Below, piece by piece: positions 25,486 to 64,000 of a stretch of 64,000 nt of DNA (positions are counted from its first letter, which is position 1; each line of letters opens with the position of its first letter). The stretch is from Desulforegula conservatrix Mb1Pa (GTDB lineage Bacteria > Desulfobacterota > Desulfobacteria > Desulfobacterales > Desulforegulaceae), in contig NZ_AUEY01000011.1 of the NCBI RefSeq assembly GCF_000426225.1, positions 1 to 64,000 of the forward strand, given 5' to 3'. Both the position numbers and the translations under genes were made by a program. Under the pieces are notes generated by a model, which was given only the letters and a program-made list of their open reading frames with translations, had not been told where the DNA came from and did not search any database.

Positions 25486-25625
25486 TCCGGTCGGCAGTTC
25501 ACCCAGGCGTCGCCGCCCCGTTAGGGGAGCTAAACCTGCCTAAATTCTCAATTCGACCGGACAACTTATTTTGTGCCGCGTCGGAAGACGGCGACCACCG
25601 ACTCATCCAGTCAGGATAGGCACAC
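25486..25625 (+). ncRNA. Structured 5' leader upstream of the DUF2087 gene (candidate cis-regulatory RNA)
   Basis: TCCGGTCG (25486-25493) pairs with CGACCGGA (25554-25561) as a closing helix. Inside it, GGCAG (about 25493-25497) pairs with CTGCC (25536-25540), and CCCC-GTTA-GGGG (25516-25527) forms a tight hairpin. Downstream, CGTC-GGAA-GACG has a GNRA loop and GACT-CATCC-AGTC makes another short stem. The block is clearly more GC-rich than its surroundings. It matches no riboswitch class I could recall. Confidence 0.45.
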
Positions 25626-42676: not shown

Positions 42677-44089
42677 TTAGATGTCATAGTACAGGAAGAA
42701 TTCGTGCGGATGAGGACGGCTTCTGACAGCCGAAACTTCTTTTTCCATCTTGTAGGAAATCCAGGTGTCAATAACTTCTTTTGTGAAAACATCACCCTTG
42801 AGAAGGAATTCATGATCTGCCTTAAGAGCATTAAGAGCTTCCTCAAGATCGCCCGGAGCCGAAGGAATAAGCGCAAGCTCTTCTGGTGGAAGATCATAGA
42901 TGTTCTTGTCCATTGGCTGACCAGGATCAATCTTGTTCTGGATACCGTCAAGCATGGCCATAAGGATCGCAGAGAATGCGAGATATCCGTTGCAAGAAGG
43001 GTCAGGAGTTCTGAACTCAAGACGTTTTGCCTTTGGAGAAGAGTTATACATTGGAATACGAATTGAAGCACTGCGGTTACGGCTTGAATAAGCAAGGTTG
43101 ATTGGTGCTTCATAGCCAGGTACAAGGCGCTTGTAAGAGTTGGTGATAGGGTTGGTGAAAGCACAGATCGCTCTGGCGTGCTTAAGAATACCACCGATTG
43201 CGTAAAGACCCATTTCTGACATGCCTGCGTATTTGTCGCCGGCAAAGAGAGGCTTGCCGTCTTTCCAAATACTTGCATGAACGTGCATACCGCTGCCGTT
43301 ATCGCCGAAAAGCGGCTTAGGCATGAAGGTTACGCTGTAACCGTGCTTGTATGCAACATTTTTGAGAACATATTTGTACCAGCAGAGCTGATCAGCCATT
43401 TCGAGAAGGGTGTTGAACTGCATGTCGATTTCGCACTGACCCGCAGTAGCAACTTCATGATGCTGGCATTCCATAACTATGCCGAGACTTTCGAGGGTCA
43501 TCATCATTTCGTTACGGATATCCTGGAACTTGTCCGCAGGAGGAAGCGGGAAGTAGCCTTCTTTATGACGGATCTTGTATCCGAGGTTCGGATTTTCTTC
43601 TCTTCCGCTGTTCCAAGCCGCTTCACAAGAATCAAGCTGATAGAATGCAAAGTTAGGGCCTGAGTTGAAGCGAACGTCATCAAAAATGAAGAATTCCGGT
43701 TCTGGGCCAAAGAAAGAGGTGTCGCCGATGCCGGTGCTCTTGAGATAAGCTTCAGCCTTCATTGCAATGTAGCGTGGATCCTTGTTGTACTTTCCGCCGG
43801 TGATAGGATCTGCAACGTCAGCAAGAACTACAAGGGTTTTGTCTTTGAAGAATGGGTCGATCTTCGCGGTCTTTGCATCCGGAATGATTATCATGTCACT
43901 GGCTTCGATATTCTGCCATCCACGAATACTGGATCCGTCAAAACCACGACCTGCTTCAAAGAAATCTTCTGTAAGATCGCTGGCAGGAACAGTGAAATGC
44001 TGCCAGGTACCCATGAAGTCTGTAAAGCGGACATCAACTACCTTAACGTCATTGTCCTTAGCAAATTTGATTACTTCTTGTGGTGTCAC
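42677..44089 (-). CDS. glnA: Glutamine synthetase type I, adenylylatable
   Basis: 470 residues, the normal length for a GSI-beta dodecameric enzyme. It makes glutamine from glutamate, ammonia and ATP. Visible motifs are [53 protein letters not shown] and RFRTPDPS-like [11 protein letters not shown]. The adenylylation tyrosine is Y398 in NIYDLPPEE, and a glnE gene is present at 49229, so covalent control should operate. The start is GTG at 44089 with AAGGAG upstream. A strong terminator hairpin lies only 30 bases upstream of the start, inside the leader, which suggests attenuation. It is the last gene of the glnD-amt-glnB-glnA run. Confidence 0.97.
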
Positions 44090-56632: not shown

Positions 56633-58371
56633 ATAAAATATTCAAGTCATTTTTACGTTTTTTTTTATTTCCGCGATATGATGACCGTCTGATTCTCATA
56701 ATAGCCGGTGCTTTCACAGGAATTTGCAGTGGTATTGCCGCGGTCTTTCTTGCCAAATCCATTCATTTCATAACCGAGCTTCTTTATGGGGGAACATTTG
56801 GCTGGTACTCTGTTCTTTTTCCAGCTTGCGGAGCATTTCTTTCTGCTCTTGTTTTGTACAAAGTATTCAAGGATGAAGGCGCTCATGGAGTTCCCGATGT
56901 CATTTACAGCGTATCAAAGTTTGGAGGCGCATTAAAGCTCCGCAGCAGTCTTTCAAGACTTATTTCAAGTGCATTGACAATTGGAAGCGGAGGATCGGCA
57001 GGGCCTGAAGCGCCCGTGGTAATGAGCGGCGCGTCCATAGGCTCAAATATTGCGAAACTCTTCAAATTAAACAGCAGACAAAGAATCATTCTTGTTGGAT
57101 GTGGAACGGCAGGGGCCATATCAGCCATATTTAATGCCCCTATTTCAGGTATGATTTTCACGCTTGAGATCATAATAGGAGAATGGCACTCAAGAAATAT
57201 AATCCCCATAGCCGTAGCAGCTGTGACAGGAGCCCAGACCGGATGGTTTTTAAAGGGCAAAAAATCGGTTTTTATCATTGAAAATGCCTTCAATTTTGAA
57301 CTTCATGACATTGTATCCTGCATTGGCCTCGCAATTTTTACAGGTCTTGCCTCAATTCTGTTGACCAGACTAATGAGGGGAATGAGCCGATTAACTTCTC
57401 GAATAAAGCTGCCTGTATGGTGCAAGGCTCCCATAGGCGGCCTGATGGTCGGAGTTATAGGTCTCTTATATCCTTATATTCTGGGTGAAGGATATGAAGG
57501 CATTCAAATGATGATCGAGGGCAATTTTGACAGACCAGACTATATTATATGGTTTTTGTTTCTTCCTGCTTTTTATATTCTTCTTAAATCAATTGCTACG
57601 TCCCTTACAATTGAATGGGGAGGCAGCGGAGGAATATTTGCTCCAAGCCTCGTCATAGGAGCTTTTACCGGAGTTTTTTATTATCGCGTTCTTTCTTTTT
57701 TACTGCCTGGCTATATTTGGGCCGGAGAAGGCTGGTATGCGCTGATAGGAATGACGGGGCTTATTGCAGGTATCATGCAGGCCCCATTAACAGGTATTTT
57801 TCTTGTCGTTGAAATAACGGGTGGCTACGGAATTATAGTACCTCTTATTCTGGTTTCAGCAATATCATCCCATTTTTGCCGATTTTTTGAGCCAGCATCA
57901 ATTTACCTAAGGTCTTTGGTGGAAAATGGTAAACTATTAAGGCCAGGTACAGATGAAAGAGTCTTATCAGATCTAACTGTCATGGAACTTATCGAAAAAG
58001 ACTGTCAGGTTATTGGCCAGCATATGATTCTAAGAGAGCTTGTCTTAATGCTCAAAGAAACAAGAAGAAATTATTTTTCTGTAAAAGATGAGGTTTCGGG
58101 AAAATTTGTGGGGATGGTTCATTTGAATGATATAAGACCGTATCTTATGGATGATCTTATATATGATAATGTCTTTGTTTATCAGATAATGCATACAGAT
58201 GTTCAGACCATCGGCTTAGATGAGGATCTCACAAAGGTACTTGAACTAATGGACTACCATGGGCTGTTCAGTATCCCTGTCGTTGTAGACGGATATTTTG
58301 AAGGAATGATCTCAAAAGCTACTCTTCTTGACAGATACAGAAAGGAACTCAGGGTTCAGACAGCCTTCTGA
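56629..58371 (+). CDS. ClC-family chloride channel/antiporter with C-terminal CBS pair
   Basis: 580 residues from the ATG at 56629, overlapping the upstream stop; a longer in-frame start would extend into the EIIA gene. About ten to twelve membrane segments carry ClC motifs: GSGGSAGPEAPVVMSG, where the gating glutamate of the usual GREGP is kept as GPEAP; WGGSGGIFAPSLVIGA; and GLIAGIMQAPLTG. The C-terminus has two CBS repeats (VMELIEKDCQVIG and VFVYQIMHTDV-like). It moves chloride, possibly in exchange for protons. It is coupled to the EIIA-like gene and lies near YitT and nhaA. Confidence 0.88.
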   Translation: MNKIFKSFLRFFLFPRYDDRLILIIAGAFTGICSGIAAVFLAKSIHFITELLYGGTFGWYSVLFPACGAFLSALVLYKVFKDEGAHGVPDVIYSVSKFGGALKLRSSLSRLISSALTIGSGGSAGPEAPVVMSGASIGSNIAKLFKLNSRQRIILVGCGTAGAISAIFNAPISGMIFTLEIIIGEWHSRNIIPIAVAAVTGAQTGWFLKGKKSVFIIENAFNFELHDIVSCIGLAIFTGLASILLTRLMRGMSRLTSRIKLPVWCKAPIGGLMVGVIGLLYPYILGEGYEGIQMMIEGNFDRPDYIIWFLFLPAFYILLKSIATSLTIEWGGSGGIFAPSLVIGAFTGVFYYRVLSFLLPGYIWAGEGWYALIGMTGLIAGIMQAPLTGIFLVVEITGGYGIIVPLILVSAISSHFCRFFEPASIYLRSLVENGKLLRPGTDERVLSDLTVMELIEKDCQVIGQHMILRELVLMLKETRRNYFSVKDEVSGKFVGMVHLNDIRPYLMDDLIYDNVFVYQIMHTDVQTIGLDEDLTKVLELMDYHGLFSIPVVVDGYFEGMISKATLLDRYRKELRVQTAF

Positions 58372-58857
58372 TTCTATTGTTGGTATTAATATTGCTTTTA
58401 CTGATAAAATTATATTTTTTAAAAAAATATTAGTGCGTTGCAAATGCATGACATTGGCCTGTAGCCCAAACTAAATAAATCATATATATAAAAGGAGGTG
58501 GCGGAGATGCTTTGACAGGATCAATATAAGAATCAGCATTGCTCAATAACTGAAATATCATATTTGCTATATTAATAATCCTTTTAACGGATTATCCCTC
58601 TATTATAAATATTGTTGAACCTTGCCTATTATCTGGTTCTCAAACAAAAATTATAGATAAATCCCATCAATGCTGTCGGTGAAAACAAGATGAAGAATTC
58701 CTGCCAAGGAGTTACTCTTTATTATTTTATCAATCTGTTATCTCTGTTTTTAGAGTGTAACATATTGTAAATAAAGAAGATGTGAATTATTGTGGGTCTT
58801 TTATAACCAGTTGTATATTTTTTATACATATAATTTGCGTGCAGTGGATATTTTAGA
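58372..58857. other. Long AT-rich intergenic region
   Basis: About 490 bases without a gene. It holds a strong but isolated AAAGGAGG followed by ATG-CTT-TGA at 58507, a short dyad ATAATCC/GGATTAT (58575-58595), and TGTATA-TTTTT-TATACA (58812-58828) next to a TATAAT-like element. Confidence 0.45.
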
Positions 58858-58908
58858 AACCGGTGGCGTACAGACCCAGGCGCGTTTACGTGGCAACCGG
58901 TATTTTTT
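58858..58908 (+). promoter_or_regulatory. GC-rich leader hairpin with T-run upstream of the aminomutase gene
   Basis: ACCGGT (58859-58864) pairs with ACCGGT (58896-58901), with an inner CGTA/TACG pairing, and is followed by ATTTTTTAG. It resembles an attenuator, 62 bases before the ATG. A palindrome CTTATATTATAAG follows at 58919-58931. Confidence 0.45.
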
Positions 58909-58970
58909 AGCTTGTGACCTTATATTATAAGCATGAGCCTTATTGGAAATCCTGGGAAAAGGAGTAAAAA

Positions 58971-60758
58971 ATGACCTTAAACATATTCAATATGGAGGAA
59001 TGCCTTAGAGAAGGTAGAACAATACTTAGTAATATCAAAGACTGCATTGACCTTGAGTCGGTAAGATCAATCCTTTATGCCTCAGTAACAGGTATCCAGT
59101 ATGAAAGTTTCGGACAGAACAGAAACAGGTGCACCGATCATCAAAAAATTATAATTCGCGATTGTTCCAGGGCTTTCAGGGCTCTGCTATCCAGAAGATC
59201 AGACAGCTTGGTTGGTTTTAGTGTTACCCAGGTGCTGTGGGATCTGTCAAGAGGCATAGATCGAAGTGATTTATCAGAAGCTTTTTATGCTGAAATCATT
59301 CACCTTTTCAGGGGGCTAAAGGGGCTAGCCAATTCTTCTGAGCCAGACGAGTCTACCATGACAGGGCTGAAAGGCCGCGAAGCTGCTGTTGCAAGATCCA
59401 ACGAACTCGACAGAATATGGGGCAAAATTGAGCATGTTATGTCAAGATATCACGATGGTTTTTCTGAGGATGCAGTTAGCAGAAGAAACGAAAGGCGCGG
59501 GCATATCCTTGAAAAAACCCGAGGTTCTGAAAATGACTGGAACAACTGGCACTGGCAGGTCAAAAATATAATAACAGACTCTGACAGGCTTTCATCAATG
59601 GTGAATCTGAATGAATCTGAGTTTGAAGCAGTAAAAAAGGCTGTTGCAGCCCGTCTCCCATTTGGAGTCACTCCCTATTACGCATCACTTATGGACAATG
59701 ATCCTGAAAAAGGCAGGGACATGGCAATAAGGGCACAAGTAATCCCGACTCCTTACTATGTTGAAAAAATGGCGGCGCACGGAGATAACAGGGCCGCAGC
59801 ATTTGATTTTATGCTTGAGGCAGATACATCTCCGGTTGATCTTGTCACAAGAAGATATCCTGCGATTGTTATTTTGAAGCCTTTTAATACCTGTCCTCAG
59901 ATTTGTGTTTACTGTCAGAGAAACTGGGAAATAGATCAGGCAATGGCTCCCGGCTCAATGGCAGGTAAGAAAAAAATAGAAGAAGCCTGCAAATGGATTG
60001 AAGATCATCCTTCAATTAAGGAGGTTCTTGTTACTGGCGGAGATCCACTTGCAATGTCTGATCGGGCTATTGAGTCCATCCTTGAAAGACTATCCTTGAT
60101 CCGTCATGTGGAAATGATCCGAATCGGCTCAAGGACTCCTGTCACATTGCCAATGCGTATTACGGCAAAATTTGCTGAGATGCTTGGAAAATTTCGCAAA
60201 CCAGGGATAAGAGATATCTGCGTCGTCACCCATATAGAGCATGTTTATGAAGTCACCCCGGAACTAGTCACAGCGGTTGAACTCCTTAAAAGACAAGGAA
60301 TAGGAGTTTATAACCAGCATGTCTTTACTTTCCATGTTTCAAGGCGATTCGAGGCTTCGGCCCTTCGTAGGCTTTTGCGTAAATGCGGAATAGATCCTTA
60401 TTATACATTCGCTCCAAAGGCTAAGGAAGAAACCGATGAATACAGGGTTCCGCTTGCAAGAATCCTTCAGGAGCAAAAGGAAGAGTCTCGTCTTATGCCA
60501 GGCACAAGACGAACCGATGAGCCTGTATATAATGTTCCAGGACTCGGCAAGAATTATTTAAGGGCTCTTCAGCACAGGGATTTGATTTCTATCCTTCCAG
60601 ATGGCTCAAGGGTTTATGAATTCCATCCATGGGAAAAAAATATCATAAAAAGAGATTCATATTTAGGTTCAGATATTCCAATTCTCACATATCTTTCAAG
60701 ACTCAGGTCAATTGGCGAAAACCCAGATGACTATTCAAGTATCTGGTATTATTTCTGA
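58971..60758 (+). CDS. KamA-family radical SAM aminomutase, glutamate 2,3-aminomutase-like
   Basis: 595 residues. The SAM cluster motif is CPQICVYC (C308, C312, C315), and PLP should be held by K527 in VPGLGK. In lysine 2,3-aminomutase two aspartates (D293, D330) bind the substrate's side-chain amine. Aligning YYTFAPK with the LAM segment puts K483 at the first position, and YNVPG puts N521 at the second. Lys and Asn there are what characterises glutamate 2,3-aminomutase. The predicted reaction is L-glutamate to L-beta-glutamate. A 290-residue N-terminal extension is unrecognised. It is followed by a divergent glutamine synthetase after a dispersed repeat. GGAG precedes the ATG. Confidence 0.85.
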   Translation: MTLNIFNMEECLREGRTILSNIKDCIDLESVRSILYASVTGIQYESFGQNRNRCTDHQKIIIRDCSRAFRALLSRRSDSLVGFSVTQVLWDLSRGIDRSDLSEAFYAEIIHLFRGLKGLANSSEPDESTMTGLKGREAAVARSNELDRIWGKIEHVMSRYHDGFSEDAVSRRNERRGHILEKTRGSENDWNNWHWQVKNIITDSDRLSSMVNLNESEFEAVKKAVAARLPFGVTPYYASLMDNDPEKGRDMAIRAQVIPTPYYVEKMAAHGDNRAAAFDFMLEADTSPVDLVTRRYPAIVILKPFNTCPQICVYCQRNWEIDQAMAPGSMAGKKKIEEACKWIEDHPSIKEVLVTGGDPLAMSDRAIESILERLSLIRHVEMIRIGSRTPVTLPMRITAKFAEMLGKFRKPGIRDICVVTHIEHVYEVTPELVTAVELLKRQGIGVYNQHVFTFHVSRRFEASALRRLLRKCGIDPYYTFAPKAKEETDEYRVPLARILQEQKEESRLMPGTRRTDEPVYNVPGLGKNYLRALQHRDLISILPDGSRVYEFHPWEKNIIKRDSYLGSDIPILTYLSRLRSIGENPDDYSSIWYYF

Positions 60759-60772
60759 GATTTAAGCTTGGC

Positions 60773-60901
60773 AAGGTCGCAAAAAGTTCGCTTCTCGTCA
60801 TTTCGGCGCAGGCCGGAATCCAGAAGTATCTGAATATACTGGATGCCGGGCCAAGCCCAGCATGACGCCGATGCCTTTTTTTGACTTTTTGCGAGACCAC
60901 C
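60773..60901. repeat. Dispersed inverted-repeat element, copy 12, with target duplication
   Basis: A full copy, CGCAAAAAGTTCGCTTCTCG ... GACTTTTTGCGAG. It is flanked by the direct repeat AAGCTTGGC at 60764-60772 and 60902-60910, which looks like a 9-bp target-site duplication. Confidence 0.85.
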
Positions 60902-60978
60902 AAGCTTGGCTTATGATCAACGCTGACATGGACATAAAAGATTAAACCCATCTGACAATTAGACGACAGAGGACTATC

Positions 60979-62304
60979 ATGAATTATTCTGAAATGACAG
61001 ACCATGACATGGAACTCACCAAAATTTTCTTCTGTGATCTCAACGGAAGGACAATGAACCTTTCAGTAAATGGTATGGGATTAGATAACATAGAAAAAAA
61101 TGGAATAGGATTTGACGGAAGTTCAATTGCAGGCTTTGCAAGTGTCGAAAATAGCGACCGGCTTCTTTTTCCCTTGAAAGAAAGTTTTAAGAAGATCGAA
61201 TTCAAGGGAGAATCCATTAAATTTTTCATAGGCAAAATCTGCGATGAACAAGGTAAAAGATCAGATATAGATGCGAGAGCAATTCTTGAAAAAATTCTTG
61301 AAAAAGCAAGAAATAATTATGGATTTAGTTTTCTTGCAGGTCCTGAGCATGAATTCTTTTTGCTAAAAGGTAATGAATTTGAGCTGACAGGAGAGCCGGT
61401 AAATAAAAAGGCCCATTCTGACATGGCCGGATACTGTCATTCCCAGCCCCATGACAGGGGGGGACAAATAAGGCATCGGATAACCAAAATTCTGCAAGGC
61501 TGTGGAGTAAACTACGAAAAAACACATCATGAGGTGACTCCTTCCCAGCATGAAATTAACCTCGAATGTTGCGATCCTCTCGAGGCAGGAGACAGGACAG
61601 TCCTTTTTTCATATATTGCCAAAAAAGTTGCCATGAAAAACGGATTCTACGCCACATTCATGCCAAAACCCTTTGACAGTCTAAACAGAAGCGCACTCCA
61701 TATTCATCTGTCAATGATGGATAGCGAAGGGAATAACCTTTTTCACAGACAGGGTGCTGAATACAACCTGAGCGATGAAGCAAAATATTTCATGGGAGGA
61801 ATACTCAAATATGCAAGAGAAACCTCTGTGATAATGGCTTCTACCTATAATTCCTACAAGGCATATATCGCTGAAAAGGAAGCTCCTGTCCTTAGAAGCT
61901 GGGGGTTCAGGAATAGAAGTTCCATGATAAGGATTCCATACACAGTTAGTCCACAAAACACACGAATAGAACTTAGAAGTCCGGATCCTTCAGGAAATGT
62001 ATACCTTCAGCTTGCAGCCTTTATAGGGATGGGGTTAAAGGGGATAGAGGAAAAAACAGATTGCGGCAACCCTGATAGCGGGAGTGCATATGACAAATAC
62101 CGAAACTCGAGAAAAATATGGGATGAAAGATTTTTGCCCAAGAGCCTTTACGAGGCTCTTGTCGAGGCTGAAAAAAGTGATTTTCTCAAGGATTTCCTTG
62201 GGAAGACAATCTATGATAATTATATACGCCTCAAGACAGAGGAGTGGGAAGAGCACAGAACCCATATAACTCCGCGCGAGCACAAAAAATATCTTGACCT
62301 TTAA
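60979..62304 (+). CDS. Glutamine synthetase-like ligase with altered substrate site
   Basis: 441 residues of GSI fold. ATP- and metal-binding motifs are retained: GIGFDGSSIAG, GPEHEFFLL, HHEVTPSQHE, NRSSMIRIP and ELRSPDPSGN. The glutamate-binding loop differs: the canonical NGSGMH is NRSALH (R237 where Gly265 is expected), and the canonical [12 protein letters not shown] is SYKAYIAEKEAP (A295 where Arg321 is expected). The adenylylation tyrosine region is missing. It may ligate ammonia to a different acid; next to a glutamate-2,3-aminomutase-like gene, beta-glutamate is the natural guess. A polyamine- or other gamma-glutamyl ligase is the alternative. Confidence 0.85.
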   Translation: MNYSEMTDHDMELTKIFFCDLNGRTMNLSVNGMGLDNIEKNGIGFDGSSIAGFASVENSDRLLFPLKESFKKIEFKGESIKFFIGKICDEQGKRSDIDARAILEKILEKARNNYGFSFLAGPEHEFFLLKGNEFELTGEPVNKKAHSDMAGYCHSQPHDRGGQIRHRITKILQGCGVNYEKTHHEVTPSQHEINLECCDPLEAGDRTVLFSYIAKKVAMKNGFYATFMPKPFDSLNRSALHIHLSMMDSEGNNLFHRQGAEYNLSDEAKYFMGGILKYARETSVIMASTYNSYKAYIAEKEAPVLRSWGFRNRSSMIRIPYTVSPQNTRIELRSPDPSGNVYLQLAAFIGMGLKGIEEKTDCGNPDSGSAYDKYRNSRKIWDERFLPKSLYEALVEAEKSDFLKDFLGKTIYDNYIRLKTEEWEEHRTHITPREHKKYLDL

Positions 62305-62365
62305 ATGAGAATTCTGTCTGCGGCAAGCTTCCGGCGGGACAAAAAATACTGGAATGGAGGGACTG

Positions 62366-63244
62366 ATGTCCAGTGAAAAAAATCCTCAGATTATATTTGT
62401 TTCTTCAGAACATTTTTTAAAGAATCTATTTCTTATTGCAGCGGGTTCTGTAGTTTCTGCAATTGCAATAAATGGAATTCTTGTACCACATAGTTTTGTT
62501 GCTGGAGGAATAACAGGACTTGCACTTATCATTCATTCAGGCTTTTCTTCATTGAGGGTTGAATGGATATATATTGTTCTTAATATACCTCTTTTCGCTG
62601 CTGCATGGATGGCGGTTGGGCGACGGTTTTTCTTTTTCAGTGTTATTGGAGCTATCAGTCTGAGTCTTTCAATAGCTTTTGTTAATGTACATATAGATCT
62701 GAATGACAAGATTCTTAACGCTCTGCTAGCAGGTATTATTCTGGGCTCTGCTGTGGGTATAACCCTCAGATCGTCTGGTTCCCAGGGAGGGCTCGATATT
62801 CTTGCTGTCATGCTCCTTAAAAGATTTTCCATAAGCCTCGGAAACACAATTCTTTTCGTAAATTCGATTGTGCTGGTTCTTGTTGCTTATTTTTATTCCA
62901 TTGAATCATCTCTTTACACTTTGATAGTTATATACGTTACCTCCAAAGTTGTTAATCTAATAGTTACAGGACTCAGTCAGAGGAAGGCCGTCTTTATCAT
63001 ATCTCCTAAGTGGAAAGAAATTTCAGAAGAAATTCTCAGTGATATCAGGAGAGGCGTAACAATCATAGACGGCAGAGGTGGCTATAAAGGTAAGCAGGAG
63101 AGTATCGTCTATACTGTAATAACATTTCCTGAAATCGGGGAACTTAAAAAACTGATAAGAAAAATCGACCCTGAAGCTTTTGTTGTTATAAGCAATACCC
63201 TTGAAGTGATGAATTATCGCATAGGAAACCAGCCACACTGGTGA
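62366..63244 (+). CDS. YitT-family membrane protein (DUF161/DUF2179)
   Basis: 292 residues from the ATG at 62366, preceded by GGAGGG; an ATG at 62354 is in frame but has no site. About six membrane segments form the YitT domain (motifs NGILVPHSFVAGGITGLAL and SGSQGGLDILAVM). A C-terminal DUF2179 cytosolic domain contains GRGGYKGKQ and EAFVVISNTLEV. The family is thought to transport a small molecule, but the substrate is unknown. It is downstream of the GS-like gene by 61 bases and could be its product's exporter or importer. Confidence 0.85.
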   Translation: MSSEKNPQIIFVSSEHFLKNLFLIAAGSVVSAIAINGILVPHSFVAGGITGLALIIHSGFSSLRVEWIYIVLNIPLFAAAWMAVGRRFFFFSVIGAISLSLSIAFVNVHIDLNDKILNALLAGIILGSAVGITLRSSGSQGGLDILAVMLLKRFSISLGNTILFVNSIVLVLVAYFYSIESSLYTLIVIYVTSKVVNLIVTGLSQRKAVFIISPKWKEISEEILSDIRRGVTIIDGRGGYKGKQESIVYTVITFPEIGELKKLIRKIDPEAFVVISNTLEVMNYRIGNQPHW

Positions 63245-63539: not shown

Positions 63540-64000
63540 ATGGTTAAAAAAACAGGTAAAAGTTTTCAGGATTTTTTTCATAATGAGACATCCGGCGGGA
63601 TAATACTTCTTTTTTTTACTTTTTTAGCCCTGCTTTGGGCAAATTCTCCGATTGCCCATACATACGACAAACTATGGCACACCTATGCAGGGTTTCAGAT
63701 AGGATCATTTGCTCTTTCAAAATCTCTTCTGCATTGGGTTAACGACGGCCTTATGGCAATTTTCTTTTTTGTTGTCGGGCTTGAAATCAAAAGGGAGATT
63801 GTCACAGGAGAGCTTTCTTCGCCCAAAAAAGCCATGCTTCCAATAGCAGCGGCCATTGGAGGTATGATTGTCCCTGCCGTTATCTATTTATCTCTTAATA
63901 AGGGCGGAGTCGGGCAGTCAGGATGGGGAATACCCATGGCAACAGATATTGCTTTTGCCATAGGAATACTTGCCCTTCTCGGAAACAGGGTTCCTTTATC
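63540..64000 (+). CDS. nhaA: Na+/H+ antiporter NhaA, partial (runs off window end)
   Basis: 153 codons are visible, from an ATG at 63540 with GAGGTT upstream. Motifs are GIILLFFTFLALLWANSP, NDGLMAIFFFVVGLEIKRE and MATDIAFAIGILALLGNRVP; the paired-helix ATDIAFA segment holds the ion-binding aspartate. It exchanges sodium for protons and gives salt and alkali tolerance. The C-terminal half is outside the window. Confidence 0.95.
   Translation, partial: MVKKTGKSFQDFFHNETSGGIILLFFTFLALLWANSPIAHTYDKLWHTYAGFQIGSFALSKSLLHWVNDGLMAIFFFVVGLEIKREIVTGELSSPKKAMLPIAAAIGGMIVPAVIYLSLNKGGVGQSGWGIPMATDIAFAIGILALLGNRVPL

Follow-up and report, generated by a model that had tools for sequence, protein, structure and literature searches.

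A KamA-family aminomutase gene beside a divergent glutamine synthetase gene in Desulforegula conservatrix Mb1Pa: a possible route to beta-glutamine

Gene content of the locus

The window analysed here is a stretch of 64,000 nucleotides from Desulforegula conservatrix Mb1Pa (contig NZ_AUEY01000011.1, positions 1 to 64,000), the relevant features of which are listed in Table 1. The first-pass annotation had described an open reading frame for a KamA-family radical SAM enzyme followed by one for a glutamine synthetase (GS), and both were recovered at the same positions on the forward strand. The transporter genes named as their neighbours, encoding a ClC protein, a YitT-family protein and NhaA, were likewise confirmed by profile scores, and a second cation/proton exchanger (CPA-type) with a TrkA_N domain was found just past the window end. 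Taken with the residue replacements described below, the observation is far beyond chance.

The KamA and GS genes are separated by 220 bp, and this gap holds a 144-bp palindromic repeat. In the closest relative, KamA, GS and YitT follow one another as they do in the window, and a gap of 23 bp separates the first two; for these two reasons, the pair probably forms an operon that is interrupted by insertion of the repeat. Elsewhere, genes for glutamate 2,3-aminomutase (eam) are associated with Na+ riboswitches. No known riboswitch was identified when the locus was scanned against Rfam at E values up to 1, and riboswitch control of the pair was rejected on this ground. A sigma-54 promoter was also discarded as a candidate, given that matches in the window did not exceed chance level and none was located directly upstream of KamA, and a search for viral relatives returned none. 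Two further elements were observed in the window: a short inverted repeat with AACCGGT (58848-58910), which lies inside the 600-bp gap upstream of KamA and has no Rfam match, and an Rfam COG3860 RNA motif (25488-25541) whose score of 76 bits exceeds the gathering score of 42.5.

Table 1. Position of genes, residues and sequence elements in the window
Feature	Position	Strand	Basis
Housekeeping GlnA (contrast; outside the module)	42677..44089	-	TIGR00653, 665 bits (cut-off 429)
ClC chloride channel/transporter with CBS domain	56638..58371	+	PF00654, 279 bits
KamA-family radical SAM aminomutase (K600; predicted glutamate 2,3-aminomutase)	58971..60758	+	595 aa; TIGR00238, 337 bits (cut-off 199)
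N-terminal helical extension, residues 1-135	58971..59375	+	common to clade; absent from LAM and EAM
Radical SAM CxxxCxxC motif, Cys308/312/315	59892..59915	+	invariant in clade
Lys483, site of LAM Asp293	60417..60419	+	alignment
Asn521, site of LAM Asp330	60531..60533	+	alignment
Lys527, predicted PLP-binding lysine (LAM Lys337)	60549..60551	+	invariant in clade; alignment
Palindromic MITE/REP-like repeat, 144 bp, between KamA and GS	60764..60907		at least 41 genomic copies (550 first-look candidates)
Divergent GS subfamily; predicted beta-glutamate--ammonia ligase	60979..62304	+	441 aa; PF00120, 332 bits
Arg237, replacing glutamate-site Gly (MtGS Gly246)	61687..61689	+	Arg in all subfamily rows; Gly in all control GS
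Ala295, replacing glutamate-site Arg (MtGS Arg303)	61861..61863	+	Ala/Thr in all subfamily rows; Arg in all controls
YitT-family membrane protein	62354..63244	+	PF02588, 185 bits
NhaA Na+/H+ antiporter, continuing past the window end	63540..64000	+	PF06965, 523 bits

The aminomutase and its clade

While the KamA protein clearly exceeds the cut-off of the KamA family model (Table 1), it scores 240 bits against the glutamate 2,3-aminomutase (EAM) model TIGR04368, with a cut-off of 650, and 191 bits against the lysine 2,3-aminomutase (LAM) model TIGR03820, with a cut-off of 525. By the NCBI criterion, the protein does not belong to the characterised EAM family and is part of a deep, separate clade, here referred to as K600.

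An AlphaFold model of the protein (mean pLDDT 87.5) was overlaid on LAM (AblA, PDB 2a5h) with a Z of 41.4 over 336 residues at an rmsd of 2.0 Å; the assignment of residues between the KamA protein and LAM is therefore considered sound. At the first substrate site, YYTFAPKAKEETDEYRVP (residues 477-494) aligns with LAM YYIYQCDLSLGLEHFRTP over 18 residues each and free of gaps, placing Lys483 on the LAM aspartate. At the second site, NVPG-LGK is one residue shorter than LAM DAPGGGGK, with Asn521 on the second aspartate and Lys527 on the PLP lysine. Both replacements had been noted from the sequence in the first-pass annotation, and the aspartate pair typical of LAM gives way to the lysine and asparagine of EAM. 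Ruzicka and Frey are said to have described in 2007 what the two LAM aspartates do in substrate binding and the presence of Lys and Asn in EAM at these positions. The value of this pair as a mark of EAM is supported here by L206, a protein over the NCBIfam EAM cut-off (716 bits) with Lys/Asn at both sites, whereas the LAMs carry Asp/Asp.

With EAM, the KamA protein therefore shares the residues at the LAM aspartate sites and the radical SAM and PLP residues, and its residues 136-185 align to an N-terminal stretch of the EAM model that LAM lacks. In contrast to EAM, it is about 180 residues longer, is one residue shorter between the asparagine and the PLP lysine, has a C-terminal end that falls off the EAM model, and belongs to a long-stemmed clade of its own. 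The fold, the radical SAM motif and the PLP lysine are common to LAM, which, however, carries Asp/Asp, lacks the N-terminal helical domain and is often paired with an AblB acetyltransferase rather than a GS. Modelled alone, the N-terminal domain had a pLDDT of 85, and no convincing match was found for it in the PDB (best Foldseek E 1.5; VIA Z at most 4.2), so that reading a function from this domain was rejected.

Members of the K600 clade are proteins of about 600 residues, all with the extra helical N-terminal domain, and are present in 29 of 297 genomes of the phylum. At least 578 loci were counted in a named genome collection, distributed over Desulfobacterota, Myxococcota, Acidobacteria, Zixibacteria, Planctomycetes, Spirochaetes and others. 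Lys483 and Asn521 are invariant in 44 clade sequences wherever the region is present, one sequence being truncated. In a tree built after removal of both trait columns, the clade is monophyletic (100/100) on a long stem and stands as its own clade on the EAM side of a 94/92 branch, with only one change required for the lysine at the first site. The tree holds one certified EAM, given that L206 was the single protein over the cut-off in a TIGR04368 survey of the phylum. An AU test, however, did not reject a grouping of K600 with LAM (p 0.148). The proposed glutamate specificity of the mutase gains from the two residues, which do not vary in the clade, but the model score does not place the protein in the EAM family. 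Three near-EAM proteins (L104, L207 and L180) were seen to carry Lys/Thr at the two sites; L104 and L207 are slightly under the EAM cut-off, and the L104 gene is adjoined by ATP-grasp-like and M20 peptidase-like ORFs.

The divergent synthetase and its mutase partners

The designation of the next gene as a divergent GS was borne out by its score of 361 bits against TIGR00653, below the cut-off of 429 for GlnA. Membership of the GS superfamily is clear from the PF00120 catalytic domain with its metal, ATP and flap residues. The positions that distinguish it from type I GS are located in the glutamate site, where MtGS Gly246 and Arg303 are named among the glutamate/Mg-binding residues (PMC10799026). 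In the KamA-linked GS these are Arg237 and Ala295, and the exchanges Gly246 to Arg and Arg303 to Ala or Thr were present in 37 of 37 subfamily rows, equal to 34 distinct loci. Glu137, Glu139, Glu194, His250, Glu309, Arg321, Arg336 and Arg340 (MtGS numbering) are kept in the subfamily, one row being unreadable at one position. The standard Gly and Arg were retained by 26 other GS of related genomes that served as control, and the GlnA encoded in the window also has the standard glutamate-site residues. With type I GlnA, the KamA-linked GS shares both Pfam domains as well as the residues for catalysis and for metal and ATP; unlike it, the subfamily combines two glutamate-site changes with linkage to an aminomutase. 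From its sequence, it looks like a GS in which catalysis is intact and the pocket for the amino acid is altered, and beta-glutamate would be the new substrate.

At E < 1e-125 the subfamily was detected in 34 of 242 genomes of the order and in 4 of 297 in the phylum sample. A search of the source genome found GlnA and the KamA-linked GS and no third GS. In another genome (G015, contig C48, 17937-20139), a third, remote GS-like gene with 191 bits to PF00120 lies beside a gene for a 361-aa KamA protein, possibly a further synthetase-mutase pair.

These residues also bear on the reading that an ordinary LAM merely neighbours an unrelated second GS for ammonium assimilation. The LAM-like fold and the AU test would be compatible with it, but both substrate aspartates are replaced across the whole K600 clade, the LAM model score is far under its cut-off, the Gly and Arg usual in the glutamate site are missing from the GS, and the window encodes a normal GlnA elsewhere; we consider this explanation very improbable. 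It is also conceivable that the mutase makes beta-glutamate while the GS relative ligates an amine other than ammonia or forms a gamma-glutamyl-type conjugate. The GS superfamily includes glutamate-methylamine ligase and gamma-glutamylputrescine synthetase, and the changed pocket as well as sub-cut-off scores to the models of gamma-glutamylputrescine synthetase and type III GS point in this direction. However, type I GlnA gives the best score, the catalytic and nucleotide residues are GS-like, and no amine-supplying gene recurs beside the pair, which makes such a ligase unlikely.

The preferred reading, a synthetase acting with ammonia on the product of the mutase, draws on the linkage of the two gene families. 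A KamA-family gene was located within 1.5 kb of the GS subfamily gene, always on the same strand, at 23 of 33 loci; after omission of five loci that had been found via the KamA search, 18 of 28 were linked, compared with about 0.1 expected by a rough estimate from gene density. The usual partner is a 358-aa KamA-family mutase whose two sites carry Glu/Ala; in G517 it is encoded 25 bp away, and several GS genomes without a neighbouring mutase have the 358-aa gene elsewhere in the genome. A K600 mutase adjoins the GS in four genomes (G000, the source of this window, G016, G041 and G167), and in the first three of these a search of the genomes found no 358-aa mutase. This points to a GS that can be supplied by one mutase or the other. 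Since the mutase partner is exchangeable, both mutases are best explained as feeding the GS, and the swap ties the synthetase to the mutase product. The earlier proposal that the GS acts on this product hence gains from the remodelled glutamate site and from the linkage to KamA mutases, but not from the identity of the usual partner with its Glu/Ala pair. The module of a subfamily GS gene followed by a 358-aa Glu/Ala KamA gene is the commoner two-gene arrangement (L246-L270, e.g. L250:369-3020).

Conversely, a GS is nearby in only about 6 of 123 K600 loci, and a constant presence of GS beside K600 was rejected as an argument. As a neighbouring GS is missing in most clade members, the two-step pathway would hold for part of the clade only. 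Where K600 stands without a GS, as it does in the majority of cases, the final product may be beta-glutamate or another compound.

Osmotic context and the proposed pathway

The genes around K600 loci are consistent with a role in osmoadaptation. Of 123 clade loci, 8 have a ClC gene at a distance of up to 3.1 kb and none has one at 3.2-8 kb. NhaA is encoded 30 bp from the K600 gene of a spirochaete (L185), and YitT follows KamA or GS not only in the window but also in two close relatives (L060 and L145). The list of near-neighbour Pfam domains is led by GS, Na+/H+ exchanger, TrkA and ClC, none of which tops the matched far-neighbour control, albeit at small counts. One operon (L063:328-8836) comprises K600, the amidotransferase and synthetase for NAGGN-amide (TIGR03104, 943 bits, and TIGR03103, 816 bits, both over cut-off), a GS of the divergent subfamily, a 147-aa protein and the 358-aa mutase. 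The nearby ion-transport genes and, in this one operon, the NAGGN-amide genes are supporting evidence for osmoadaptation. The osmolyte pathway suggested in the first-pass annotation is thus strengthened by the recurrence of such genes near the clade, but it stays a prediction and would concern only those K600 loci that have a GS.

The same neighbourhoods can be read differently: the mutase would use a different amino acid, for instance glutamine or aspartate, to provide a beta-amino acid for a peptide, a secondary metabolite or catabolism instead of an osmolyte. Some clade members have aminotransferase and AAA_26 genes as recurrent neighbours, the Lys/Thr relatives adjoin ATP-grasp and M20 peptidase-like ORFs, and the Glu/Ala pair of the 358-aa GS partner could fit glutamine. 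Since NRPS and PKS families are not among the leading near-neighbour domains, and the recurrent neighbours are ion-transport and NAGGN-amide genes instead, we judge this to be rather improbable.

The analysis established the order of the genes, which residues they encode at the key sites and how conserved these are, the fold, the position in the tree and the linkage of GS to mutase genes; from these, we infer substrates, products and an osmolyte role. The KamA protein, a radical SAM/PLP enzyme, would act on L-glutamate and shift its amino group from C2 to C3, giving beta-glutamate, with Lys483 and Asn521 binding the side-chain carboxylate where the LAM aspartates bind the lysine amine. The adjacent GS relative may be a dedicated beta-glutamate--ammonia ligase with beta-glutamine as its product, which would retain the metal, ATP and phosphoryl-transfer machinery and would be retuned from L-glutamate to the beta isomer by the exchange of Gly for Arg and of Arg for Ala in the pocket. 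Beta-glutamate and beta-glutamine would then serve as non-protein compatible solutes alongside the chloride, sodium/proton and cation/proton transporters.

A precedent for the second step is the GS of Methanohalophilus portucalensis, which reportedly uses beta-glutamate and makes beta-glutamine. The ablA-ablB operon for N-epsilon-acetyl-beta-lysine similarly combines a 2,3-aminomutase with a gene that removes charge from the beta-amino acid, whereas here the predicted substrate is glutamate rather than lysine, and amidation replaces acetylation.

Taken together, we lean slightly towards a conversion of glutamate via beta-glutamate to beta-glutamine by the KamA/GS pair, with the products as compatible solutes. 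Counting against it are the score of the KamA protein far under the EAM cut-off, the separation from LAM that the AU test leaves unforced, the small share of clade loci with a GS close by, the negative riboswitch scan, and the Glu/Ala pair of the usual GS partner, which has no obvious glutamate-mutase signature. The broader proposal is a dedicated bacterial beta-glutamine pathway, in which a GS was turned into a beta-glutamate ligase by moving the carboxylate-binding arginine and is fed interchangeably by two distantly related mutases, the K600 type with Lys/Asn or the 358-aa type with Glu/Ala; we rate its chances at a little under even.

Both beta-glutamine and beta-glutamate were recognised as osmolytes decades ago. 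In a review, beta-glutamate is listed in only a few bacteria (PMC1224877), and no paper describing a gene pair for beta-glutamine was found in the literature searched. If the proposed pathway is correct, it would assign genes to the synthesis of an osmolyte that for a long time had been recorded in a few methanogens only, and anaerobic bacteria with the beta-glutamine pathway could be recognised by a marker of two genes. For K600, a large and uncharacterised clade of aminomutases with at least 578 loci, there would be a testable substrate, and the KamA-linked GS would be a clear example of a substrate change in a GS via two residues.
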